Shown here: piece by piece, positions 1 to 17,071 of the stretch | Position numbering within the stretch: the first letter of the stretch is position 1 | Layout of the letters: every line of letters begins with the position of its first letter | DNA from: a virus | IMG/VR virus record: IMGVR_UViG_3300024348_000315 | Location: 1-20,096 of that record | Length of the DNA stretch: 20,096 nucleotides | Direction: 5' to 3' (one strand) | Notes under the pieces: generated by a model | Database searches by the model: none | Told to the model about the DNA's origin: nothing | What the model saw: only the letters and a program-made list of their open reading frames with translations | Program-made: the position numbers and the translations under genes

Positions 1-207
1 TGCTCCTTTAGATTCTTTATAAGGAATATCCAATATTTTAAATCTCTTATCTTCTTTATATTTGCTTAAATTTTGTTCATTAGAATGTTGCCATGCTATT
101 CCAAATACTAAATTTTCTGGAAACTTGGCCTTAGAAATACAATCTTCTATAGTAGGTATCAATTCAGTGTCTCTATAAGAAGCAATTTGTACAAAAATAC
201 TATTCAT
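1..207 (-). CDS. GlcNAc-type (GT60-like) glycosyltransferase, N-terminal part
   Basis: The complement strand stays open from an ATG at 207 to the window edge: 69 codons of the N-terminus, with the C-terminus outside. The protein opens with MNSIFVQIASYRDTELIPTI and continues with a KAKFPENLVFGIAWQH segment and an IPYKESKGA segment. This order (IFV-IASYRD, then KA-P-NL-FGI-WQH, then a strand ending in ESKG) is the N-terminal signature of the GlcNAc glycosyltransferase family (Pfam GlcNAc, GT60-like). Characterised eukaryotic members transfer GlcNAc from UDP-GlcNAc to polypeptide hydroxyl groups (Dictyostelium). The catalytic DXD motif is not in view. The frame is open upstream of 207, but the family's conserved start lies right after this ATG, so I prefer it. 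The gene diverges from the virion genes. The substrate is unknown: virion proteins, DNA or host glycans are all possible. Confidence 0.82.
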   Translation of the reverse strand, partial: MNSIFVQIASYRDTELIPTIEDCISKAKFPENLVFGIAWQHSNEQNLSKYKEDKRFKILDIPYKESKGA

Positions 208-294: not shown

Positions 295-3200
295 ATGGCA
301 TCAACGAAAGCATATACTATAACAACCGAAGGCACTTGGCCTAACGAAAAATATGTTGTTGGTTTAGATGGAAATTTGATTGATCCTGCTTTACATTCAA
401 TTCCAGCATATAATTATTTCAGATTTAATAACTCTATAGATGTTCCTATAAACTATTATAATTCATATGATTATTTAAATTCTGCTCCAGTCTTTGATAC
501 TCAAGGTCTTAATGCGATTGATACAACTGCATCTACGTCTTTAGTTTGGAATGTATCTTCCGAAAGAAGATTATTTAATATAGGAAATACATTTAATACG
601 TTAGCCATAGATATAGCACCTGGTAGTAATATTTCAAACAAATATTATTGCTATTATATAAATCCTAAAAGATTATTATTAAAACCAACATCTAAACCAA
701 CATTTAATGGTACTAATTGGACATTAAATACAGAAACAGTTTTAAAAGACGAATATACTAGATTTTATCTATCATCTGCTTCTGATGTTTCTGGAGCACT
801 TGAAATTAGAAAAGAAAATGTATCAAAGCCCACTACAAGTTCTTTACCAATTAACAACTATTCAATTGTTTACAATATGTCTAGTTGTAGAATGAGAAAT
901 AACATACCAGTTATTTCATTTACTCCTACAAACAATCCTATATTTTTATCTACTGTATTAGAACCATCACCAAGTACTTCTGTAGATAAATCAAGAATTA
1001 GACCAGATAGTACATTTGTAACATATAGCGTAATTTTTTATGCAGACTATGGTCCTTCAAATGGTGGTATAAAAATGGGAAATTTAGGACAAGAACGATT
1101 TGATAATGTTGCAACATATGGTTCATTACCAACACTAAAATCTTCTTATATAATGACCGATAAATTTCCTGTAGATTTATCAACAAAAACACAAAACGAT
1201 AAACAAATATTTCAATTATTACAAATAAAAAACGACAGTAGTCTTTCGGATCTTTCAGATACAAAATATTGCGTATTATGTGCTACTTTTAATTTATCAG
1301 ATAGTAATTTTACGTATTTAAGCAAAAATTATTTTACAGGAACTACTATAGTAAATACCATCACGGGTTTACCTGATACTAACATAGGAGTTAGTTATAT
1401 AGCAGATTGTCCAACGTTACAATTTACACAAGAAAAGTGGCAAGATACTGTTAATTCCGTAACAACTCCATTAGGAGTTCCCCTCACGGGATCTAGTTCT
1501 ACACATTCTAGTATAGATTGGGTGACTAAATATCCTCCACATTACTACTCATACAAAGCATCGTTAAAAGATGATAATGATCCATCACAATCATTGATGG
1601 AAACTTCGGACTTAACTTTCTTTTTAAGATCTCCTATAATTTCTCAAGAATATACTCCTAAAGGATGGAATTATTCTGCTACACTTTCTACATATATAGG
1701 TTCTGATCATGATTTTGTTACATATGATCTTTCATTTGGTGCTCCCGATGATTATATAAAATTTACTCCAAGTCTAGATGCATCGAATGTTATATTAGAT
1801 GATGTTTATGCTTATTACGGATCTTCTTTAAATATTCCATATGATTTAAAATCATCTCCTTGGATAAAGGCATCTGATGCAAATCAATTAAAAATATCTT
1901 ATCCCTTTGAAAAACATGGTGAAATTGAATTTACAATCCTTTCTACTCTTTCTAGTTTTGCAGGAATTTTAGACTCATTTGAAAAAACAAATATTAAATT
2001 AGCCATAGGTCAGCCTCCTAATAATAGTGGACAACCAATTTTTATTTCAAAGATATTTGAAGTTGCTGATAGACTAGAAGCAGATTCATCATTCTTAGTT
2101 AATGATACGTCTTGGCCAACAAGAGATCTAAATGGTTCTAATATTTCTTGGTTTGTAGAACCAATAAATTCTACCACAAGCATAAATGCTGTTGATTTAA
2201 ATGGAAAGTATTTACAATCAATAACTCCGGGACAATCTATTTTATTCAACTCTAATACACAAACAGTTGCCGTTTCTGGATATGGTCCACAAACTATAGT
2301 ATTAACTCTTTCATCACAGAAATATAATGAAACTACAAGCGTGTCATCAGTTTCTTCGCTTTTCGATTACTTTTCAGAAGGATATTTGTTAGTTGGTTCT
2401 CCTAATGGAGTTAACAATCTTAATAAAACAAGATCTTTATATTTAACTGCTGCTGTTCCTTATAAGGGAAGACAATATGATATTCCACAAAGCGGTAAAA
2501 TATGTTGGACTTGGTCTTACAATGGTCAAACATATGATACTTCTCCAGTTTCTGCTTATTATATAGCAGACAATACTCCATATGTATTTGGTACAGACGA
2601 TTCTAATATAGTATTGAGTTCTATTTATTTTGAAATAGAACCTCCATATAATACTGTACCTAATTTAAATAACTTTGATGTTCTTGCGAGTATTGACACA
2701 CCAAAAGGATTAATAGATGGAACATATAATATATTATTAGATGATTTTCCTAATCCATCTATTTTTAATACAGATTTCTTAACATATTATAGCAGTTTTG
2801 ATAACTATACTACTGTTTATAATCCATTAGTATCTAATGATATATCAAATACAAGATTAACTAAAAACGTAATTACAAGACCTAATAATAATACAAATGC
2901 ATTTAATTTATATAGTCATAGTGATGTTATACCAAGATTTGCATCAACTTCTACTATAATATGGAATGTTTCTAGTACAGACAATGATTTATATGATGTT
3001 AATAACACTAACACTATTTCATACACAAAAAATAAAAAATCAGATACAATAATATCATTAAGTGCCTTAAATGCTATTGTACCTGGTTGGACGTTTCCTC
3101 ATAACATTAAAAGTGAATTATCAATTCATATATTAGATGAAAATGAATTTAATAAAAATTTAGAATTTATAAGCATACCAGAATATTTTTGGAATAGTGG

Positions 3201-6048
3201 TAGGTATGCAACAGTTTCAGATACGAGCAACTTCACACAAATACAATCTTCAAATAAATTTGGAACATTTGGTAATAAAAAATCAAATAGTCAAACTTAT
3301 TATCTATCTACAAATAAACCATATTCAAATGATTTGATATATACAATGGGCATATCATCTCCATTTACAATATTTGATGGCGTTACTTCTAGTTATGAAC
3401 TTATAGACATTCCATATAGAACTGAAATGTTTACTTCTAGTGGATTATATATATCAGTATTTGCATATGATACTCTATATTACCCAAGAAAAATGGGTCC
3501 AACGTATAAAATACCAGATTCTGGTTCTTTAGTAACGAAGTCTTTTAATATAAAGGCAGAAACACTATCAAATAGTTCAAATTTATTACGAAATACATTA
3601 AAACTTAAAGATTATACTGATATAACATTTTCATTTTATCCTTTAGCAACTTCTATAAATGTTGATACTGATAGAACAATTTCTATAACACAAAAAATAA
3701 GCACAAATCCTTTAGAATCACCAGTTCAAGTTGATTATGGAACAATAACATATACACTTTCAACATATTTTTGGAAAGAACAAAAAGTTGTTCCTGCCGT
3801 AGATGGAACCTTTAATTTATTTAATATAAACATTGGTGATAAATTTAAAACATTAACAGTAGATAATAGAAATAATACTATGGTTTTACAAGCATCTGCA
3901 AATGTTTATAAAAAAGTACCATCATCTACCTTTAATGATTATGCAAATAATCAATATACAAACGAAAGAGATTTATGGAATTCTGTTAATCAAATAACAC
4001 CATTTATTTCATCAGTTAATATAAAAACCAATAGTGATGTTGCTATTCCTTCTATTTTCATATCAACTGCATATACACTAACCGGATCTAATATATTCAT
4101 ACAATTCGATACACCAGAATATCAAACAAATAAAATTGTTGCATATATGGCAAATTTCGGAGAAGCAAATTCATATAAAATACTTTCATATGATTCTACT
4201 TTATTTTATAACTATAAAAACTCAGGAACTTATTATATATCATATAGTGCATTGTTTAAAGATGGTTCATACTTAGAATTTAAAAATCCAAATCCAATAA
4301 TTGTAAAAGATAGTTGGGAAGTTTATGATCCAAATGCTTTAAGATTTGTAGAAGAAACTATACTATCTCTTCCTTATTCAAATGATCAAGTATTGATACA
4401 ACCCAATGAATGGGGAGATGAGGACATATTCAATTCAACAATTTCTAGATTAAGTGATAATTTGGATTATTTAATATCTAATGTACAAACACTAGATACC
4501 AAATCTCCTACATTACTTTTTGGTTGGTTAGGAACGAATCCAAATTATCTAGCTAATGGTATTAGATGGTATACTAAAGACACAGATTCATTTATATACG
4601 ATGCACCAGAGTTTTCTGTTTCTCAAGGAAGTTCTTATTTCTCAAACATAAAAGATGCATCAGAAGTAAATGATCGTATGTTTATTTTAGAGGGAAATAC
4701 CTTCAAAGCTCTTTCTTCTACATATTTTGCACCAGATATTAATTTAAATGGTACAGATGATCTTAAAACTACTCTATTAAATCCTGTTTCATTGGAAATG
4801 AATGAAGATGGAACTGTTGCTTACATAGTAGATCCTCCTAATAATAAAGTTTATAGATTTGATTTACAATTTTCTACTACACCTCCAGAGTTAAATTACA
4901 GTATAAATATCGGTGGATTAGGAACTTCATTTGATAATAATAAATTCAATTCTCCTTCAGAAATATCATATGCTTCAGGAAGATTATATGTATTAGATTA
5001 TAATAATGATTGTATTAAACAATATAATTCACTGTTAAATTGGAGATATACATATAGAAATCCTATTTTTGAAGTAGAACAACCAATTACAATAGCAGCA
5101 CATCCTAAATTTAATATGTTGTATGTGTTAACAGATAATAAAATTATATATATTTTTGATGATTTATCATCTGATTATATAGCATCATTCAACATAAAGG
5201 AAGTAGTTGGAGATGTAATAAAAATGTCTTTTGATGAATCTGGGGATTTTATATACATACTAACTACTAATAATGTTTACAAATACTCTCCTTCTGGATA
5301 TTATATTACTACTTTAATACTATCAAAATCTATTTTAAATTTTGTGAGCATTAAAAAAGCTAGTAATCGTTCTATGCTTTTAATAACAAAAAACAGTGTA
5401 ATAAAAATACAAGATATTCTATCTGTTTATAGGATAGGTGGAGGAATTCATTCCGAGTATTGGTCAAAAGATCAATTATTGATAGATAGAAATGAGTTTT
5501 CATCTGATATCAATTATAATAGAAGTTTAATAAGAATGGGGCAAAATATTAAAACATTTAGAAAAACTTTAAATTATAAATTGGTATTGGCTACAGAACA
5601 AACGAGCAATGGTATTGTTACATATTTTGCAAAAGCACCTATATCATACACCGAACTTCCAATGTTTGATGATACTATAGAGTTAGATTCTATAGGAGTA
5701 GGTATAAATGAATTACATGTTCCTCAGACAATTAATAAAGAATTAATAAAACTCCAAAATGCTTTAATGAGTTTAAAAGATTTTTTAGATATTAAACAAT
5801 TGACGTTAGAAAACTCTAAACTTTTAGATAAATGTGGAGGCGAATTTTGTTGGTCATGGGGTGCTATGAGTTGTTATAATTTTAAATTACCAGTAATTCG
5901 TATTTGTAACATAAATCCAATTACATATGAAGAATTAGAAAATAATTCTATTACTGTTTATGCTCCCAATAAAAGTTGGAATTTAGCAACTTCTGATTGT
6001 TGTAGTAAAGTACCAACGCCATTTACCGGATTAAACTGTTCATTTTAA
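295..6048 (+). CDS. giant virion structural protein with propeller-like region and Cys-rich C-terminus
   Basis: A 1917-residue protein with no signal peptide or membrane segment. It is rich in Ser, Thr, Asn and Tyr, with many short beta-strand-like stretches; WNVSS occurs twice, suggesting repeated immunoglobulin-like or beta-sandwich domains over roughly residues 1-1380. Residues about 1440-1710 carry NHL/YVTN-like strands (NEDGTVAYIVDPPNNKVYRF, ASGRLYVLDYNNDCIKQYN, GDFIYILTTNNVYKYSPSG), which look like a six-bladed propeller. A helical stretch at about 1795-1840 precedes the last 71 residues, which hold seven cysteines (1847, 1852, 1860, 1871, 1902, 1903, 1915), half of all those in the protein. 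Size, composition and location in a late gene block argue for a tail or fibre-associated virion component. I do not recognise a named family. The start is the first ATG after the promoter-like box; no Shine-Dalgarno sequence is present. Confidence 0.93.
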   Translation: MASTKAYTITTEGTWPNEKYVVGLDGNLIDPALHSIPAYNYFRFNNSIDVPINYYNSYDYLNSAPVFDTQGLNAIDTTASTSLVWNVSSERRLFNIGNTFNTLAIDIAPGSNISNKYYCYYINPKRLLLKPTSKPTFNGTNWTLNTETVLKDEYTRFYLSSASDVSGALEIRKENVSKPTTSSLPINNYSIVYNMSSCRMRNNIPVISFTPTNNPIFLSTVLEPSPSTSVDKSRIRPDSTFVTYSVIFYADYGPSNGGIKMGNLGQERFDNVATYGSLPTLKSSYIMTDKFPVDLSTKTQNDKQIFQLLQIKNDSSLSDLSDTKYCVLCATFNLSDSNFTYLSKNYFTGTTIVNTITGLPDTNIGVSYIADCPTLQFTQEKWQDTVNSVTTPLGVPLTGSSSTHSSIDWVTKYPPHYYSYKASLKDDNDPSQSLMETSDLTFFLRSPIISQEYTPKGWNYSATLSTYIGSDHDFVTYDLSFGAPDDYIKFTPSLDASNVILDDVYAYYGSSLNIPYDLKSSPWIKASDANQLKISYPFEKHGEIEFTILSTLSSFAGILDSFEKTNIKLAIGQPPNNSGQPIFISKIFEVADRLEADSSFLVNDTSWPTRDLNGSNISWFVEPINSTTSINAVDLNGKYLQSITPGQSILFNSNTQTVAVSGYGPQTIVLTLSSQKYNETTSVSSVSSLFDYFSEGYLLVGSPNGVNNLNKTRSLYLTAAVPYKGRQYDIPQSGKICWTWSYNGQTYDTSPVSAYYIADNTPYVFGTDDSNIVLSSIYFEIEPPYNTVPNLNNFDVLASIDTPKGLIDGTYNILLDDFPNPSIFNTDFLTYYSSFDNYTTVYNPLVSNDISNTRLTKNVITRPNNNTNAFNLYSHSDVIPRFASTSTIIWNVSSTDNDLYDVNNTNTISYTKNKKSDTIISLSALNAIVPGWTFPHNIKSELSIHILDENEFNKNLEFISIPEYFWNSGRYATVSDTSNFTQIQSSNKFGTFGNKKSNSQTYYLSTNKPYSNDLIYTMGISSPFTIFDGVTSSYELIDIPYRTEMFTSSGLYISVFAYDTLYYPRKMGPTYKIPDSGSLVTKSFNIKAETLSNSSNLLRNTLKLKDYTDITFSFYPLATSINVDTDRTISITQKISTNPLESPVQVDYGTITYTLSTYFWKEQKVVPAVDGTFNLFNINIGDKFKTLTVDNRNNTMVLQASANVYKKVPSSTFNDYANNQYTNERDLWNSVNQITPFISSVNIKTNSDVAIPSIFISTAYTLTGSNIFIQFDTPEYQTNKIVAYMANFGEANSYKILSYDSTLFYNYKNSGTYYISYSALFKDGSYLEFKNPNPIIVKDSWEVYDPNALRFVEETILSLPYSNDQVLIQPNEWGDEDIFNSTISRLSDNLDYLISNVQTLDTKSPTLLFGWLGTNPNYLANGIRWYTKDTDSFIYDAPEFSVSQGSSYFSNIKDASEVNDRMFILEGNTFKALSSTYFAPDINLNGTDDLKTTLLNPVSLEMNEDGTVAYIVDPPNNKVYRFDLQFSTTPPELNYSINIGGLGTSFDNNKFNSPSEISYASGRLYVLDYNNDCIKQYNSLLNWRYTYRNPIFEVEQPITIAAHPKFNMLYVLTDNKIIYIFDDLSSDYIASFNIKEVVGDVIKMSFDESGDFIYILTTNNVYKYSPSGYYITTLILSKSILNFVSIKKASNRSMLLITKNSVIKIQDILSVYRIGGGIHSEYWSKDQLLIDRNEFSSDINYNRSLIRMGQNIKTFRKTLNYKLVLATEQTSNGIVTYFAKAPISYTELPMFDDTIELDSIGVGINELHVPQTINKELIKLQNALMSLKDFLDIKQLTLENSKLLDKCGGEFCWSWGAMSCYNFKLPVIRICNINPITYEELENNSITVYAPNKSWNLATSDCCSKVPTPFTGLNCSF

Positions 6049-8802: not shown

Positions 8803-8824
8803 TAATATTTTTCATTAAATATTA
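8803..8824 (+). promoter_or_regulatory. late-promoter-like box ATTAAATA inside an inverted repeat
   Basis: ATTAAATA (8814..8821) lies just before the ATG at 8828. If it works like a T4 late -10 element, the transcript would begin at or within a base of the start codon. The box overlaps a perfect 8-bp inverted repeat, TAATATTT (8803..8810) and AAATATTA (8817..8824), with a TTCATT loop. Confidence 0.4.
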
Positions 8825-8827
8825 CTA

Positions 8828-9808
8828 ATGAATTCTAAAACACTTTTTGTTAATGCCTTACCGAGTGTGGGATTTACGTCTACAGCACCGTTTGAATTGA
8901 CATTAAATCCGTCTGCATTAAATCCATTTTCAAAAATATATAAAATAGAATATGATTTTGGAGATGGATTTATATTTGAACAAAAATTGACTTTAGATTC
9001 TAATAAAATTACTAATTCTGTTACACATGTTTATCATTTAACAAGTAGTTTTATTGGAACATTTAATGTTAATGTTAAAACATATTTAATAAACAAAGCA
9101 CTTCCGGTTTCATATGGATTTACTTTGAGATTAAATGCACCTACGCTAGAATCAATATCTAATCCAAATACAGCAGTACCAGCACTTTTAGATGAACTCC
9201 ATTTAATAGGATCTAGGATGTTTGGATTTAATAATGAATTAGTTTATATTTTTGAAAGCATAAATCCAAATTATACTTTACCAGTATCTGTGATATGGAA
9301 CGATAAAAAAGATATTACAATAACAACAACAAATAAAGAACTATCATTCTTTGAAATTGTAGAACAAGGTGTTGGTAATCGTCCGTATAAATTATTGGCT
9401 CCTTTTGAAAATGAAGTAGTTACTAGCATAGATACAGATTCTCATATAATTTCTGTTAATTTTGGAGATTCTGCTTCTGCCTACAATAATCCAGACGATA
9501 TCTATATAACAAACGTATCACCTCCGATACTTATTTTAACTCCTACAGCAACTCCTACAGCAACTCCTACAGCAACACCTACAGCAACAATTACTCCTAC
9601 ACCTACTCCTACACCTACTCCTACAGCAACACTTACACTACCAAATTCAACACACACACCTACTCCAACACCTACAGCAACACCTACTCCTACAGAAACA
9701 TCTACAGCCACACCCACATCAACACCTACAAATAGTGGAAATTTTTTCGTATCATGGGTATTAGATCAAGACAGTCAAGACAGTCAAGACAGTCAAACAT
9801 ATTTTTAA
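8828..9808 (+). CDS. PKD-domain protein with Thr-Pro linker and short DSQ-repeat tail
   Basis: 326 residues. Residues about 1-105 resemble a PKD/immunoglobulin-like beta-sandwich: YDFGDG (D43-G47) and THVY (66-69) followed by [11 protein letters not shown] correspond to the PKD pattern of DFGDG, then HxY, then GTYxVxL. Residues about 106-235 form a second beta-rich segment without a recognised family. Residues 238-303 are a mucin-like Thr-Pro-Ala linker. Only about 22 residues follow, ending in three DSQ units and TYF. In many phage proteins such a linker leads to a further domain; here the protein simply stops, so a distal domain may have been lost. The downstream neighbour uses the same kind of linker between propellers. 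Likely a virion surface or fibre-associated protein; exact role unknown. Confidence 0.9.
9539..9736 (+). repeat. Thr-Pro-rich linker tract (residues 238-303)
   Basis: The tract begins with three exact 12-base units ACTCCTACAGCA (9539..9550, 9551..9562, 9563..9574) and a fourth with one change (9575..9586), then less regular TPTPTP and TPTATP codons. All units are multiples of three, so slippage would change linker length but not frame. The encoded sequence is mucin-like, with about half of its residues Thr. Confidence 0.9.
9770..9796 (+). repeat. three 9-bp units GACAGTCAA at the gene end
   Basis: Exact copies at 9770..9778, 9779..9787 and 9788..9796 encode DSQDSQDSQ, four codons before the stop codon at 9806..9808. 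The flanking GATCAA looks like a decayed further unit. Probably slippage-derived. Confidence 0.85.
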
Positions 9809-9845: not shown

Positions 9846-12800
9846 ATGTCAAATATAAATATAGTAAATCCAAGTAAAATAACAACATCTACTAAGCATT
9901 TTCATTCCCCTTATGTGGATCTTTATATTCCGATTTTAAATAATCCTCATGGAAGTAATAAACAACTTTTTGTTTCTACCTTATTTGCATCTGATGTTGG
10001 AACTTATAATAAATGTTATAAAACAACTACATATGACGATTTAATCAGAATACCTTTACAAAGAGTTGCGACATCAGATGCAACTGGTAACTATCTTTCT
10101 AACTTTATAGATAAAAACGCAGGATTTTATATAGATCAAGGAGAGTCTTTGATATTATATGTTAAAAAAGGAACTTATGGTTATATAACCTTCGTAGAAT
10201 TATTTTCAAATGAAAATACAACAACTACTACTACACCTATTATTTCAACATGGTCGGATTCTGTAAATACTCATGAAGTTGTCGTGGATAATCGTAATAC
10301 TATTGTTTTTGATAAAAAAATAGTATATGGACAAGGCATTTTTATTAGTTATTTGAATAATATTCTTCATAGTCCTAAATCTAATGCTTCGCAAGAAGAA
10401 ATATTTGAAGAAATTTCATATAGTTATGATGGTATATCATGGAAAGGAATTTATCTTAACATACCAAAACCACCAAGTGATACTCGTACATTTATATCCA
10501 ACATGACACATGGAGGAGGAAAATTTGTTGCTATCACTCATTATTGGAACGGAGTTGGTATGTACGCACTGGTTAGTACCGATGGTGGAATTTCATGGAA
10601 ACGTTATGTAATTAATAAAGAAACAAACTCATTGTCACCAAACTATATTCCAAATATGTCAACTATGTGTATGACATATGGTAATGGAAGATTTGTTATG
10701 ATAGGAAAAGTTGGGAATAATAATTACTCAATATATAGTGATGATGGGATAAATTGGTCAAGAGGGAGTTTCCCAACTTTTGTGTTTGATTTTCATGATA
10801 TGACATATGGTAATGGAAAATTTGTAGCTGTTTACAAACACAACAATTTTAATCAACAAGGGGTAATTTATAGTACTGATGGTATTACATGGAGTTCATC
10901 TAATTTGGTGTCATTACCAATGACACCAAATTATACTAAGGATGTTGATAATAATAAAAGAAAATTAACATATGGAAATGGAATTTTTGTTTGTATTGGA
11001 GATAAAGATAAAGTATTTTATAGTAGTGATGCCATAACATGGAATACTTCAAGTTTACCAGTATACAAAACTATTGATACTAAAGTAAATGATATTACTT
11101 GGAATTCAATATCATATGGAGATGGATATTTCTTTGCTATTAAGGGTTATTCATCCTTTGCAGCATATAGTACTGATGGAATAACATGGAACACAAGTAA
11201 ATTACCAACTAATCCTTATTGGTCTTCACTAGAATATGGAAATGGAAAATTTGTTGCCGTTTCAAAAGATAGCGGAAACGTTGCATATATTCAAACGGGT
11301 GTTTCTGCTCCAGTTCCTACACCAACTCCTACCCATACACCAACACCAACAATTACACAAACCCCATTGGCATATTCAACATTGCCTACCACTCTCGACG
11401 CTAATAATGTAGTAAGAATTGGAAATTATTCTTCAATAACATATGGTGGTGGAAAATTTGTTTCTATTATGAAAGGGGATGTTAACATTAATCAAATTAA
11501 AACAGCAGCATATAGCAATGATGGAATAACTTGGAATTCCTCTACTTTACCTTTTCATGGAAACTGGAATTCAGTAACATATGGTAATGGAACTTTTGTT
11601 GCATCTGCGAATTTTAGCTTCAGTGGTGGAAATTATGGAGGAATTAACAGATTAATTTATAGTACTGATGGAATAAATTGGAATCAAAGTTCTAGTAATA
11701 ATACTACTGATGCAAATTGGACTTCAATAACATATGGTAATGGAACTTTTGTTGCGGTTTCTAATTCTAATTCTCCCTGGGGAGGTGCAATCTATAGTAC
11801 TGATGGAATCAATTGGACTAGATCTTCAACAACTGGTGGTCTTGTTTCAGTTGCATATGGGAATGGAAAATTTGTAGCTATTAGTCAATATAACGGTGTG
11901 CTTATCAGTACAAATGCAATAAATTGGACAGCAACTATCCCTAGTGGTTGGAATAGACCCAATAACACAACATATTATAAAAATATTGTATACGGAGGAG
12001 GAAAATTTGTTGTTAATTTTTATGCTAATGATGCTTTTAATAACACAATAAAAGTTAGTGATGATGGGATAAATTGGACTACTGCTACGATATCTAATAT
12101 TTTAAATCAAGGCATAAAAAGCATCATATATGATGGTCAAAAATTTATTGCTTCTAATAATAAAAAAATTTATTATAGTTTTAATGCTATATCTTGGACA
12201 TATTATCCTGATGTTTTATTACCATTTGATGTTTCAGATGTTATTGGTGCAAACGGAATGGTGTATGCAGATGGAAAATATGTTTGTATTTCAAGTAACT
12301 TCACATGTTATTTTGAACTACCAAATCTTATAGATGTATCAACACCAACAGCTACACCAACAGCTACGCCTACACCTACACCTACACCTACAGCTACAAA
12401 TACAGCTACAACAGTTACGCCTACATCTACACCAACAGCTACACCAACAGTTACGCCTACAGCTACACCAACAGCTACATCAACAGCTACACCTACTTAT
12501 GAAATGTGGAGTTCTAGTAATTTAATAGAGTCTTCTGCATGGACATCAGTAGCATTTGGAAATAATAAATTTGTTGCTGTTTCCTATGATTCGAATAAAG
12601 TATTAAATAGTACTGATGGTGTAACATGGAGTAGCAGCACATTACCCGTTGGTAGTGTTTGGGCTTCAGTAGCATTTGGAAATAATAAATTTGTTGCTAT
12701 TTCCTATGATTCGAATCAAGCAGCATATAGTACTGATGGTATATCATGGACTGTTTCTGCATTACCAGCATCACTTTCTAATGTTATGACTTCAATAACA

Positions 12801-13349
12801 TATGGTGGTGGAAAATTTGTTGCGATTTCAACGTTTACCGATGAAGCAGTATATAGTACCGATGATGGTGTCACTTGGACTGCTTTTACAATGCCAGATG
12901 GGATAGGATACAATTCAATAGCATACAGTGGAACTAGATTTGTTGCTATTGGAGGTATTAATTCAACAGCATATAGTACTGATGGTGTTTCTTGGAGTAT
13001 AGGTGCATTACCTAATAATGATAGCTTGTACTCTAAAATAGCATATGGAAATGGTAAATTTGTTGCCTTTCCCGATGCTATTACGAATAAATTCGCATAC
13101 AGTACCAATGGTATATCATGGACTATTGATATATTACCATATGCACTTGAATGGACTTCTATAGTATACGGAGGAACTCGCTTCATTGCTGTTGGTGTTG
13201 ATGATGCATCAATATATAGTACTAATGGTATAACATGGAATACTGCATTATTACCATCTAATTCTGCTTGGAGTTCGGTAGCATATGGTAATGGTAAATT
13301 CGTTGCCGTTGCAATTGCAAGTAATAACGGAGCATACCTTTTAGAATAA
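9846..13349 (+). CDS. fibre/adhesin with three tandem seven-bladed beta-propellers
   Basis: 1167 residues. Residues 1 to about 130 form a beta-rich N-terminal domain, possibly a docking jelly roll. Three propellers follow at about 132-488, 508-832 and 885-1167. Each has seven copies of a W-SVAYGNGKFVAV strand pair and six copies of a YSTDGITW turn. This turn resembles the sialidase-type Asp-box (S-x-D-x-G-x-x-W); STDGGISW and STDDGVTW fit it exactly, the others are one residue shorter. Thr-Pro linkers separate the propellers at 489-507 and 833-884. No catalytic motif of a sialidase or other glycosidase is evident, so sugar or protein binding is more likely than enzyme activity. Repeats of this type are frequent in large-phage surface proteins. 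The gene follows a TATAAATA box and ends at an AT-only hairpin. Confidence 0.93.
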   Translation: MSNINIVNPSKITTSTKHFHSPYVDLYIPILNNPHGSNKQLFVSTLFASDVGTYNKCYKTTTYDDLIRIPLQRVATSDATGNYLSNFIDKNAGFYIDQGESLILYVKKGTYGYITFVELFSNENTTTTTTPIISTWSDSVNTHEVVVDNRNTIVFDKKIVYGQGIFISYLNNILHSPKSNASQEEIFEEISYSYDGISWKGIYLNIPKPPSDTRTFISNMTHGGGKFVAITHYWNGVGMYALVSTDGGISWKRYVINKETNSLSPNYIPNMSTMCMTYGNGRFVMIGKVGNNNYSIYSDDGINWSRGSFPTFVFDFHDMTYGNGKFVAVYKHNNFNQQGVIYSTDGITWSSSNLVSLPMTPNYTKDVDNNKRKLTYGNGIFVCIGDKDKVFYSSDAITWNTSSLPVYKTIDTKVNDITWNSISYGDGYFFAIKGYSSFAAYSTDGITWNTSKLPTNPYWSSLEYGNGKFVAVSKDSGNVAYIQTGVSAPVPTPTPTHTPTPTITQTPLAYSTLPTTLDANNVVRIGNYSSITYGGGKFVSIMKGDVNINQIKTAAYSNDGITWNSSTLPFHGNWNSVTYGNGTFVASANFSFSGGNYGGINRLIYSTDGINWNQSSSNNTTDANWTSITYGNGTFVAVSNSNSPWGGAIYSTDGINWTRSSTTGGLVSVAYGNGKFVAISQYNGVLISTNAINWTATIPSGWNRPNNTTYYKNIVYGGGKFVVNFYANDAFNNTIKVSDDGINWTTATISNILNQGIKSIIYDGQKFIASNNKKIYYSFNAISWTYYPDVLLPFDVSDVIGANGMVYADGKYVCISSNFTCYFELPNLIDVSTPTATPTATPTPTPTPTATNTATTVTPTSTPTATPTVTPTATPTATSTATPTYEMWSSSNLIESSAWTSVAFGNNKFVAVSYDSNKVLNSTDGVTWSSSTLPVGSVWASVAFGNNKFVAISYDSNQAAYSTDGISWTVSALPASLSNVMTSITYGGGKFVAISTFTDEAVYSTDDGVTWTAFTMPDGIGYNSIAYSGTRFVAIGGINSTAYSTDGVSWSIGALPNNDSLYSKIAYGNGKFVAFPDAITNKFAYSTNGISWTIDILPYALEWTSIVYGGTRFIAVGVDDASIYSTNGITWNTALLPSNSAWSSVAYGNGKFVAVAIASNNGAYLLE
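10239..11309 (+). repeat. propeller 1 (seven blade repeats)
   Basis: Blade cores in order: IVYGQGIFISYL, MTHGGGKFVAIT, MTYGNGRFVMIG, MTYGNGKFVAVY, LTYGNGIFVCIG, ISYGDGYFFAIK, LEYGNGKFVAVS. Asp-box-like turns occur as SYDGISW, STDGGISW, SDDGINW, STDGITW, SSDAITW and STDGITW. Units are more divergent than in propeller 3, suggesting greater age. Confidence 0.8.
11310..11366 (+). repeat. short Thr-Pro linker between propellers 1 and 2
   Basis: Encodes residues 489-507, PVPTPTPTHTPTPTITQTP. This is a flexible, extended, mucin-like spacer, with codons mixed rather than in exact tandem units. Confidence 0.85.
11367..12341 (+). repeat. propeller 2 (seven blade repeats)
   Basis: Blade cores: ITYGGGKFVSIM, VTYGNGTFVASA, ITYGNGTFVAVS, VAYGNGKFVAIS, IVYGGGKFVVNF, IIYDGQKFIASN, MVYADGKYVCIS. 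Six Asp-box-like turns lie between them, the last (SFNAISW) degenerate. The opening AYSTLPTTLD segment could supply the strand that closes the ring with the final blade. Confidence 0.8.
12342..12497 (+). repeat. long Thr-Pro linker between propellers 2 and 3
   Basis: Encodes residues 833-884, nearly all Thr, Pro and Ala with occasional Val, Ser and Asn. Codons are ACACCAACAGCT and ACGCCTACA types, unlike the ACTCCTACAGCA units of the upstream gene's linker. The two tracts therefore expanded separately rather than by recent copying. Confidence 0.88.
12498..13346 (+). repeat. propeller 3 (seven blade repeats)
   Basis: Blade cores: VAFGNNKFVAVS, VAFGNNKFVAIS, ITYGGGKFVAIS, IAYSGTRFVAIG, IAYGNGKFVAFP, IVYGGTRFIAVG, VAYGNGKFVAVA, the last ending in NNGAYLLE without a turn motif. 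The opening YEMWSSSNL matches the segment normally following a turn, so it likely closes the ring (Velcro). The first two units are also very similar as DNA (around 12541..12600 and 12661..12720), pointing to recent duplication. Confidence 0.82.
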
Positions 13350-14238: not shown

Positions 14239-15093
14239 ATGACAACAAAAACATTTGCTAATTTTGAAACTAGATCTCCTATTTTATTAGGAGATTTTCT
14301 TGTTGGTTATAAAGATGATGCATCAAAAGAGATTAAAGTAAATTTTATTAGTTTAGTACAAACTATAAGTTCTTTAATTGTTTCTGAAAATTGGGATTCT
14401 GTTTATAGTTCAGTAGTTAATACCTCTGGCAACTGGGATTCTGTTTATAGTTCAGTAGTTAATACCTCTGGCAACTGGGATTCTGTTTATAGTTCAGTTA
14501 AAGACACATCGAGCAATTGGGATTCTACTTATACAACAGTTTTAACAGAATCTGCATCATGGGTTATTGATAACTCAATCGATACCGAAGTTAGATCACT
14601 AACATCAAACTGGGAAACTACGTATAACACCGTTAATACAAATTCTACAGATTGGGATTCTGCTTATAGTACAATTTTAACATATACTCCAACAAATTGG
14701 ACTGACACATATACCAATGTACAATCAAATAGTGCATCATATGTAACACATACAATCCTACAGAGTAATTATTTACCGTTAAGCGGAGGAGTTATATCAA
14801 CAAATTTATCTGTTAGTGGTGATTATTTTAATAGTGAAGCTCTAACAGTTTTTGGAAACATAAGTGCTTCTGGTAGTGTATATGGAAACTCTTTGTCTTT
14901 AGAAGCAGATGTAGAACAACCAGTTAAATTTTTAAAATCATCATCAGCATTATCATTAAATCCTGGAGTAGATTTGGGAGTTCTTAGATGGGAATCGGGA
15001 ACTAATGCTGGAACCTTAAAATTGGTTGCATACGCAGGAACTTCTACTACAGGAGTTACCGTAATAGATAATGTTGGAAGTGGAAACACTTAA
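14239..15093 (+). CDS. tail fibre-like protein with WDSVYSSV repeats
   Basis: 284 residues. Residues 1-45 (ILLGDFLVGYKDDASKEIKV) resemble the docking segment of many phage fibre proteins. From residue 51 the 14-residue unit NWDSVYSSVVNTSG is repeated, first nearly exactly and then in degenerate forms (NWETTYNTVNTNST, DWDSAYSTILTYTPT, NWTDTYTNVQSNSA) to about residue 170. These are typical of a trimeric fibre shaft. LPLSGG and LSVSGDYF segments follow, then NISASGSVYGN, and the C-terminal region has GVLRWESGTNAGTLKLVAY. It sits directly upstream of the portal gene. It could be a short fibre or a structural spike; a receptor-binding head is not obvious. Confidence 0.92.
   Translation: MTTKTFANFETRSPILLGDFLVGYKDDASKEIKVNFISLVQTISSLIVSENWDSVYSSVVNTSGNWDSVYSSVVNTSGNWDSVYSSVKDTSSNWDSTYTTVLTESASWVIDNSIDTEVRSLTSNWETTYNTVNTNSTDWDSAYSTILTYTPTNWTDTYTNVQSNSASYVTHTILQSNYLPLSGGVISTNLSVSGDYFNSEALTVFGNISASGSVYGNSLSLEADVEQPVKFLKSSSALSLNPGVDLGVLRWESGTNAGTLKLVAYAGTSTTGVTVIDNVGSGNT
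14389..14556 (+). repeat. four tandem 42-bp units in the fibre gene
   Basis: Units at 14389..14430, 14431..14472, 14473..14514 and 14515..14556. The first two differ only in the Asn codon (AAT or AAC); the third matches through the first 26 bases and then diverges; the fourth is degenerate. The near-identity of units 1 and 2 indicates recent duplication. Confidence 0.92.
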
Positions 15094-15193: not shown

Positions 15194-17071
15194 ATGCCAG
15201 AATTTAAACAATCAAATACTAGTTCTCAAAACTCAAATTCTAGTTTTGTTTCTCAAATACTACAAAAACTCCCATATGTTGCTGGTGCAATCACAACAGA
15301 TGTTAGTAACGACAAGTATGAATTATTTGATCGTCTAGCAAAAAGACAAGAGTTAAAAATCATGCAACAATCGGTTATAACAGGACCGCATATGCGTGAT
15401 TCTGAGTATTATAATCCCGGTAGTTTTGTTTCTGATCATGCTTATCACAAATATATATATGCAAATATAGATAGTGATAAAATTCGTCGTTTATCAGAAT
15501 ATAGAAGAATGTCTTCATATTCTGAAATATCTGATGCTCTCAACGAAATTTGTGATGAAGTTATAGTAAAAGACGAAAATGATAAAGTTATAAATTTAAA
15601 CTTTACATTGAATTGTAGCAAAAACGATGAAGAAAAAAACGAATTATCAAAAGAATTTTCAAAATTTATAAGCATATTTGATTTAGAACATAAGGGATGG
15701 ATGTATGCTAGGAGATTGTTAGTAGAAGGTGAAGTATTTTTTGAAAATGTTGTCCACGAAGAAAATAAAGAAAGAGGAATCATTGGCGTTTTAAGCATAC
15801 CCGGAGAATTAATAAATCCTGTTTATGATAGTATTCAAAACAATGTTATTGAAAACTTTGTTTTTCAAAAACCTATAAATTTAACACAAAATCCATCATC
15901 TCCCCTTTCTCAGATGCAAAGCAATATAAGTCCTATGAATTCTTTGCAACAACAGATTGTAACTCTTCAAGGAAATCAAGTAACTTATATCCACAATAGT
16001 ATGTGGAACGATGATCAAACAATTAGAATTCCATTTATAGAAAATTGTAGAAGATCATACAAACAATTATCATTATTAGAAGACTCTATTATCATATACA
16101 GAATGGTAAGAGCACCAGAACGTCTTAAATTCAAAATAGATGTCGGAAATATGCCTCCTGCTAAAGCAGAATCATATCTCAAACAATTAATGCAACAATA
16201 TTGGAGTAAACAGACTTATAATTCTAATGCAGATACTAGTGGTGCAGGAAACACTTATAATCCACAATCCATGTTGGATAGTTATTGGTTTGCAAAAAGA
16301 AATGGTGAGGTTGGATCTGATGTTGAATTAATGGCTGGTGGTCAAAACTTAGGACAGTTGGATGATTTGATGTATTTTGTAAATAAATTATACAAAAGTC
16401 TTGGTGTTCCTCTTAGTCGTTTAAATCCAAATGAATCTTTTAGAGATGGTGCTGAAATATTAAGAGAAGAACTAAGATTTGCAAAATTAATAGTTAGAAT
16501 ACAAAATCAAATCGCAGAAGGTCTTAAAAATTCTTTTATAACACATTTAAAATTAAGAGGATGGTGGAGAGAATTTAAACTACATGAATATGATTTTGAT
16601 TTAAATTTCAATCCTCCTGCTAGTTTCTTTGCTATTCGTCAACAGCAATTATTAGAATTAAAACTTAAAAATTATTCTGATATGAGTCAGAATGATGGAA
16701 TATCTAATATTTTTGCTCAACGTCATTATCTTGAATATTCCGATTCTAAAATTGGAGAAAACATGGAATGGCTTAAAAAGGAAGCTGCTCTTAAATGGGA
16801 ACTTGCTCAAATCGAAGGAAGTGGTCCTAACTGGAGAGAACAATTAGAGGCTGCGACTAGTGCTGCTACCGAGATGCAAGGATCTGGTGGAGGTGGTGGA
16901 GGCTTCTCAGGATCTTCAATTCCAGAATTCGGTGGTGGAGGTGGTGGAGGTGCAGAAGAAGCACCAGAAGCAGGAGCATCACCAGAAGCAGGAGCATCAC
17001 CAGAAGCAACAGGGGAAGCACCAGAAACACCAACAGCACCAGAAGCAAAATCGGCTCCTGCGGAAGCATAA
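15194..17071 (+). CDS. 20: T4 gp20-type portal vertex protein
   Basis: 625 residues. Residues about 90-125 (YRRMSSYSEISDALNEICDE), the FKIDVGNMPPAKAESYLKQL segment near 315, MLDSYWFAKRNGEVGSDVE, and especially GGQNLGQLDDLMYFVNKLYK (from 382) followed by GVPLSRLN reproduce the diagnostic order of T4-superfamily portal proteins. The portal forms the dodecameric ring at one capsid vertex; it starts head assembly, is the DNA channel and joins the tail. T4 gp20 is about 524 residues; part of the excess is a C-terminal tail from G563 made of two poly-Gly stretches and a Pro-Glu-Ala-rich end. Its neighbours are fibre-like genes rather than the prohead protease and capsid genes next to gp20 in T4. 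Both a sigma70 promoter and a late-like box precede it. Confidence 0.96.
   Translation: MPEFKQSNTSSQNSNSSFVSQILQKLPYVAGAITTDVSNDKYELFDRLAKRQELKIMQQSVITGPHMRDSEYYNPGSFVSDHAYHKYIYANIDSDKIRRLSEYRRMSSYSEISDALNEICDEVIVKDENDKVINLNFTLNCSKNDEEKNELSKEFSKFISIFDLEHKGWMYARRLLVEGEVFFENVVHEENKERGIIGVLSIPGELINPVYDSIQNNVIENFVFQKPINLTQNPSSPLSQMQSNISPMNSLQQQIVTLQGNQVTYIHNSMWNDDQTIRIPFIENCRRSYKQLSLLEDSIIIYRMVRAPERLKFKIDVGNMPPAKAESYLKQLMQQYWSKQTYNSNADTSGAGNTYNPQSMLDSYWFAKRNGEVGSDVELMAGGQNLGQLDDLMYFVNKLYKSLGVPLSRLNPNESFRDGAEILREELRFAKLIVRIQNQIAEGLKNSFITHLKLRGWWREFKLHEYDFDLNFNPPASFFAIRQQQLLELKLKNYSDMSQNDGISNIFAQRHYLEYSDSKIGENMEWLKKEAALKWELAQIEGSGPNWREQLEAATSAATEMQGSGGGGGGFSGSSIPEFGGGGGGGAEEAPEAGASPEAGASPEATGEAPETPTAPEAKSAPAEA
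16880..17068 (+). repeat. low-complexity Gly-rich and PEA-rich tail of the portal
   Basis: Residues 563-625: a run of six Gly, GFSGSSIPEF, a run of seven Gly, then Glu/Ala/Pro repeats. Two exact 18-base units CCAGAAGCAGGAGCATCA lie at 16964..16981 and 16982..16999, with a partial third. The tail is predicted to be disordered, and acidic beyond the Gly runs. Confidence 0.88.

Follow-up and report, generated by a model that had tools for sequence, protein, structure and literature searches.

Mucin-type O-glycosylation is usually seen as eukaryotic. The mucin-like proteins of T. cruzi carry GlcNAc-alpha-Thr, which a GT60 enzyme generates and to which beta-Gal is added later (PMC9472816). A study of GT-A evolution places GT60, GT27 and GT7 in a single clade, describes DxH in place of DxD in both GT27 and GT60, and cites polypeptide Ser/Thr O-glycosylation as common to these two families (PMC7185993).

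Glycosylation of phage virions is known from few cases, and no rule relates an enzyme to its target. In XacN1, a cultured Xanthomonas phage, proteomic analysis identified at least two virion glycoproteins, and the authors credited phage enzymes as their likely makers (PMC5852040); the identities and sites of these glycoproteins are not given in the text consulted. Mycobacteriophage virion glycosylation is reportedly described by Freeman et al. 2023, a study that we know through citations. Phage virion glycosylation and mucin-type initiation are already known. Searching the open-access literature we found no paper that ties PF11397/GT60 to phage tails, VgrG or contractile systems, none that states an enzyme–tract rule and none that reports the link to type VI secretion systems (T6SS).

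The window analyzed here is the whole of a 20,096-base IMG/VR virus fragment (IMGVR_UViG_3300024348_000315). It encodes a T4-type portal and comes from a tailed phage, so that the label of phage is correct. We consider it likely that positions 1–207 are the start of a phage polypeptide Ser/Thr O-glycosyltransferase dedicated to the Pro-rich linkers and tails of contractile machines, although the sugar, the sites and the activity are inferred. The features on which the analysis rests are as follows.

1–207, minus strand: PF11397 (GT60-type) polypeptide glycosyltransferase, N-terminal 69 residues, truncated by the contig end (Pfam, PHROG)
208–294, no strand: intergenic region of 87 bp separating the glycosyltransferase gene from the divergently oriented gene 295–6048 (ORF table)
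8828–9808, plus strand: putative virion or tail protein whose C-terminal part holds a Thr-Pro tract (ORF table, tract scan, homologues)
About 9521–9739, plus strand: Thr-Pro tract 1, candidate O-glycosylation acceptor, in ORF 8828–9808
9846–13349, plus strand: 1167-residue repeat protein with propeller-like YSTDGITW...YGNGKFVAV repeats, its modules parted by two Thr-Pro linkers
About 11289–11384, plus strand: Thr-Pro tract 2, in ORF 9846–13349
About 12318–12500, plus strand: Thr-Pro tract 3, in ORF 9846–13349
15194–17071, plus strand: T4-type portal protein, the lineage marker for controls (PF07230, E 1.9e-96; PHROG 213)

The truncated gene and its full-length counterparts

The open reading frame at 1–207 matches the PF11397 GlcNAc profile over positions 1–45 (E 4.4e-11, 43.3 bits, cut-off 21) and PHROG 24687, annotated as glycosyltransferase (E 2.5e-22). 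Its ATG lies at 207, and a TTG start at 243 is likewise open. As only 69 residues of the enzyme are held in the window, the remainder is known from near-identical contigs (L002, L003 and L004, 99–100% identical) that carry the whole gene, the L004 copy ending at 11224. The full-length L004-type enzyme has 417 residues from the upstream TTG, and fewer from the ATG equivalent to window position 207. PF11397 is its only Pfam assignment and is matched in two stretches that reach profile position 351 of 352 (E 2.4e-72, 244.8 bits, cut-off 21).

Because the gene is divergent from its neighbor, it requires a transcription start of its own. Promoter-like sites number 7 over both strands, about twice the mean of 3.2 in shuffled sequences. 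No convincing sigma70 site was found for the glycosyltransferase gene, the sole minus-strand site (233–206) ending on the start codon itself.

Other features were observed in the window and close to the enzyme. A 42-bp tandem repeat of 2.5 copies, 100% matching, lies at 14392–14498 of the window within gene 14239–15093. On the minus strand of L004, 14361–16550 encodes a Cys-rich protein of 730 residues and 16573–20181 a protein of 1203 residues containing a von Willebrand factor A domain, both of which are possible surface proteins of the phage.

Active site and predicted fold

The metal motif of the enzyme is D93-S94-H95 (DSH, a DxH motif; residue numbers are those of the aligned L004 segment), and both the Asp and the His are kept in 154/154 phage and bacterial members. 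Over the same 154 members D93, H95, E202, H226 and D239 are essentially invariant. In 11 aligned phage members the motifs D93-S-H95, G200-E-E202, W225-H226 and W237-D-D239 are all retained.

An AlphaFold model of the enzyme was obtained with a pLDDT of 79.8 and a pTM of 0.73. The best 50 Foldseek matches to this model are all polypeptide GalNAc-transferases (GT27), with E values down to 8e-12, and VIA-align gives Z scores of 20.2–23.6 over approximately 270 residues against these transferases, compared with 18.3 for the next best other enzyme. Neither GT27 chains nor any other solved chain could be found for the enzyme by sequence (phmmer, profile), and the relation predicted by the model is therefore one of fold kinship rather than family membership; we do not file the enzyme as GT27.

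Sequence and structure prediction together show that the enzyme is a polypeptide-transferase-like member of PF11397/GT60 with its catalytic residues intact. That it is active is inferred, there being no biochemical data in this analysis for phage or bacterial members, and GlcNAc as the donor sugar is an inference by analogy with family precedent. Two enzyme domains are fused in a single frame of 871 or 885 residues in L006 (10001–12601) and in L054 (record G032).

The first-pass annotation had assigned the partial minus-strand product to a GT60-like GlcNAc family, which the Pfam and PHROG matches bear out, and had proposed that the full gene be checked for the complete family fold and a DXD motif. 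The complete domain is present, and the motif is present and invariant in its DxH form, which is that of GT27 and GT60 (PMC7185993). The separate sigma70 promoter that it had considered likely is not supported, for want of a convincing minus-strand site, although the gene is divergent.

Thr-Pro tracts in the window

Three Thr-Pro tracts had been noticed at first reading, at 9539–9736, 11310–11366 and 12342–12497, and all three hold with the extents listed above. The pattern TPT[PAST]TP occurs 16 times across the window, compared with 0 times in 100 shuffles, so the tracts are not a product of chance. Homologues of the 8828–9808 protein in L102, L101 and L114 align to residues 2–224 or so and stop where the Thr-Pro tail of the window protein starts. 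L101 comes from a record (G001) that has the enzyme and has tracts elsewhere, and this tail is therefore no strict read-out of the presence of the enzyme. A homologue of the 9846–13349 protein is present in L114, a fragment that has neither the enzyme nor a tract match, and its repeats continue without a linker. Most of the tract proteins in our data are not proven virion proteins.

Pairing of enzyme and tracts across phages

To compare phages with and without the enzyme, 50 records were scanned, of which 42 contain PF11397. The Thr-Pro DNA pattern occurs in 38 of these 42, while the same pattern read backwards was almost never found in the scanned records; G014, G027 and G028 carry the enzyme without a pattern match. 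Portal relatives of the window, picked without regard to enzyme or tract, served as a control, and of those of at least 70 kb that lack the enzyme only 1/20 has Thr-Pro tracts (Fisher 4e-11 against the 38/42). As the enzyme-bearing records were chosen by enzyme, this large contrast mixes lineages. Within the portal lineage of the window alone (22 records of at least 70 kb) tracts occur in 2/2 records with the enzyme and 1/20 without (Fisher p 0.013), a test with just two positives. Conversely, when 50 viral contigs were selected solely by a Thr-Pro DNA pattern, 10 proved to carry the enzyme.

The linkage is also shown at the level of gene order. A tract lies within 10 kb of the enzyme in 49/77 non-redundant loci, and its position peaks sharply 0–2 kb upstream (27% and 23% per kb, against approximately 5% beyond 7 kb). 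The neighbor of the enzyme is a tract gene in 23/74 loci, 21 of them with the tract gene upstream on the same strand, compared with the 11.0 expected from the remaining genes in these loci (p 1.5e-4). Genes that travel together near tail genes would also yield some proximity of this kind. However, the tract label changes 20 times on the enzyme tree against 22.8 times for random labels, and since this is near random the pairing is not one inherited block. Apparent Pro/Thr-rich ORFs in GC-rich actinobacterial loci were not counted, since open frames there cannot be relied upon.

Tracts are also present in relatives without the enzyme. By a looser criterion, in which portal C-termini are included, 16/84 portal loci have some tract. 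G071 (195 kb; L387, 12183–13817) is a portal relative with a Thr-Pro tract and no PF11397 match, and is an exception to the pairing. Fragment G009 (L389, L390), a portal relative that likewise lacks the enzyme, is a further exception: a 526-residue protein in it holds 112 matches to the Thr-Pro pattern. G009 has a cluster of glycosyltransferase-like genes that includes a GT7 gene, and it is possible that another enzyme serves the tract there.

The cultured phage XacN1 has the same pairing, as its ORF334 is a PF11397 enzyme related to that of the window and it encodes the Thr-Pro-rich ORF350 and ORF325, the latter adjoining baseplate wedge genes. Two other cultured phages, RAS14 and CM1, carry the enzyme as well. 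Homologues of these two ORFs in phages without the enzyme were only 21–31% identical, too distant for a contrast.

Type VI secretion and other bacterial loci

The bacterial sample comprised 80 loci with the PF11397 family. In Burkholderiales and Enterobacterales the enzyme gene lies within type VI secretion clusters, with TssG, TssA (ImpA_N) and a fimbrial-adhesin-like protein upstream; Trinickia and Paraburkholderia ferrariae are examples of bacteria with such a cluster. VgrG and IcmF/TssM lie downstream of the enzyme in L339, and in L341 a gene for an RHS protein separates the enzyme from VgrG. The adhesin gene, fimbrial or MrkD-like, is directly upstream of the enzyme at 8823–9944 in L341 and at 8964–9962 in L353.

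In all 12 enzyme-bearing genomes with a readable partner, the partner VgrG ends in a Ser/Thr-Pro repeat tail, rich in Pro and Thr in 11 and in Pro and Ser in 1. The repeat units are TP, DETP, PPPTE, EPSTP, GPT, ETTTPAPT, TTPPP, KPPVT, PPPSEA and PPPSET. No such tail is present in 40 other VgrGs (0/17 from the same genomes and 0/23 from genomes of a wider set without the enzyme). These controls are mostly more distant (at most 48% identity), with one 61% paralogue (L411) that also has no tail, and a few of their ORFs extend past the end of the fetched stretch; the partner VgrG in L406 is cut by the contig end, and genome L410 has no close partner. Of 299 related genomes, 7 contain PF11397, and the VgrG subfamily (at least 57% identity) is found in the same 7, although the VgrG query came from an enzyme-bearing genome and the boundary of the subfamily is partly set by that choice. 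Tailed VgrGs lie near the enzyme in L339 (15081–17576), L341, L343, L363, L379, L429 and L430. The tails differ between species despite cores that are approximately 57–79% identical.

The enzyme is not confined to T6SS clusters. In Sphingomonas L316 its gene follows that of a Pro/Thr-linker protein in an extracellular contractile injection (eCIS) locus (CIS_TMP, eCIS_core, AAA), and in Saprospiraceae and Bacteroidia MAGs it adjoins the gene of a Ser/Thr-Pro protein that is secreted and bears a type IX sorting domain. In the Sphingomonas eCIS loci of L316 (6318–20951) and L326 the Pro/Thr-linker protein directly before the enzyme ends in an Rv2525c-like glycoside-hydrolase domain.

Alternative explanations

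One alternative is that the enzyme acts on some non-protein acceptor, such as a glycan on the host surface, causing superinfection exclusion or a change of receptor, and that Thr-Pro linkers just happen to be frequent in these phages. Phage glycosyltransferases are well known to alter DNA or the serotype of the host (as cited in PMC12619734), and the GT-A fold is common to polysaccharide-making enzymes, which match at a lower Z (approximately 17–18). Against this, polypeptide transferases are the best match to the fold, tract genes adjoin the enzyme above chance within the same loci, and the bacterial enzyme is found in T6SS or eCIS clusters with a Ser/Thr-Pro repeat partner protein. We regard a non-protein acceptor as unlikely.

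A second alternative, also improbable, is neighborhood hitch-hiking, in which the enzyme and low-complexity linkers both gather in variable tail-fiber regions with no enzyme–substrate link. Such regions are mosaic, and some loci have tracts without the enzyme. However, tract genes are in excess next to the enzyme even when judged against the other genes of the same loci, the Thr-Pro state changes almost at random on the enzyme tree, and the pairing recurs on bacterial chromosomes, where the repeat units are unrelated.

In Skp1, hydroxyproline is the residue modified by the best-known PF11397 enzyme, and Pro is present in every repeat unit found. A Skp1-like route in which tract Pro is hydroxylated before GlcNAc is added is disfavored and considered unlikely: a prolyl-hydroxylase-type PF13640 domain, the sole 2OG-oxygenase family covered, occurs in only 1/50 records, though a host enzyme could act, every tail also has Thr or Ser, and the mucin precedent for GT60 is Thr (PMC9472816).

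Proposed function

The preferred reading remains a Ser/Thr O-glycosyltransferase that serves Pro-rich linkers and tails. The phage would encode a cytoplasmic UDP-sugar:polypeptide O-glycosyltransferase of the PF11397/GT60 kind, which would attach a sugar to Thr (or Ser) in the Thr-Pro linkers and tails of the phage's own tail proteins; family precedent points to GlcNAc as this sugar. The addition would take place before or during assembly, as in the initiation of mucin-type O-glycosylation. The donor sugar and the acceptor residue are inferred, as is the putative benefit of linkers that are stiff, protease-resistant and hydrated.

A second enzyme may extend the first sugar in this lineage, which is again an inference. 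Directly downstream of the glycosyltransferase gene, L004 encodes a 484-residue protein with both GT7 Pfam halves (PF13733, PF02709), of the beta-1,4-galactosyltransferase kind. This neighbor fits the T. cruzi precedent, in which GlcNAc-alpha-Thr is then galactosylated (PMC9472816), though GT7 is not general. As an obligate partner GT7 was rejected: it adjoins the enzyme in L003/L004 and L018 but is found also in the enzyme-free relatives G002 and G008, and it is absent from most enzyme-bearing records, which makes it lineage-specific.

The first-pass annotation had proposed that the enzyme decorates the fiber linkers, and this is supported by the family and by co-occurrence, with glycosylation itself and the sugar remaining inferred. 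Its proposal to look for co-occurrence in related phages was borne out and extends to the VgrG tails of T6SS. Hydroxyproline, which it had named among the acceptors of eukaryotic family members, is not supported as an acceptor here. The stiffening, protease protection and altered host contact that it suggested are proposed benefits and inference only.

A bolder reading, toward which the evidence leans without settling it, is that PF11397 enzymes make up a general and previously unrecognized module for O-glycosylation that serves contractile injection machines, whether tailed phages, T6SS VgrG spikes or eCIS. Each enzyme would be paired with a fast-evolving Ser/Thr-Pro linker or tail, the sequence of which would be free to vary provided that Ser or Thr is near Pro, and the eukaryotic mucin-initiating enzymes would be relatives of this prokaryotic and viral module. 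In that case the acceptor of one enzyme family could be predicted from nothing but sequence, in phages and in bacterial contractile weapons alike. The pairing gives the many Thr-Pro linkers of phage tail proteins and of VgrG tails, so far unexplained, a rationale that can be tested. It also yields a ready set of soluble prokaryotic enzymes that might be used to initiate mucin-type glycosylation in glycoprotein engineering, together with candidates for prokaryotic kin of the eukaryotic GT60 enzymes.

Comparison with known systems

The closest described enzymes are the GT60/PF11397 members T. cruzi OGNT and Skp1 Gnt1 of Dictyostelium and Toxoplasma, which the phage enzyme resembles in the whole Pfam domain, the DxH motif and the predicted polypeptide-transferase fold, and in its inferred Thr-rich mucin-like acceptors, as in T. 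cruzi. It differs from these eukaryotic enzymes in its viral or prokaryotic origin, its presumed location in the cytoplasm, its linkage to tail proteins of phages or spike proteins of T6SS and the lack of an obvious hydroxylase partner, activity data being absent. The GT27 polypeptide GalNAc-transferases have the closest solved folds (Z 20–24), share DxH and use Ser/Thr-Pro acceptors of the kind proposed for the phage enzyme, while differing in sequence (10–18% identity, not matched by sequence search) and probably in donor, which for the phage enzyme would be GlcNAc rather than GalNAc.

PglL-type oligosaccharyltransferases also modify Ser/Thr, often Pro-rich, in bacterial proteins. They are periplasmic and use a lipid-linked glycan, whereas the window enzyme is predicted to be soluble and nucleotide-sugar-dependent. 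Among phages, XacN1 and the mycobacteriophages have phage-encoded glycosyltransferases tied to virion glycoproteins, as we propose for the window phage. The mycobacteriophage acceptors are described as the C-termini of capsid and tail-tube subunits (PMC12619734), unlike the Ser/Thr-Pro tracts that accompany the enzyme described here.
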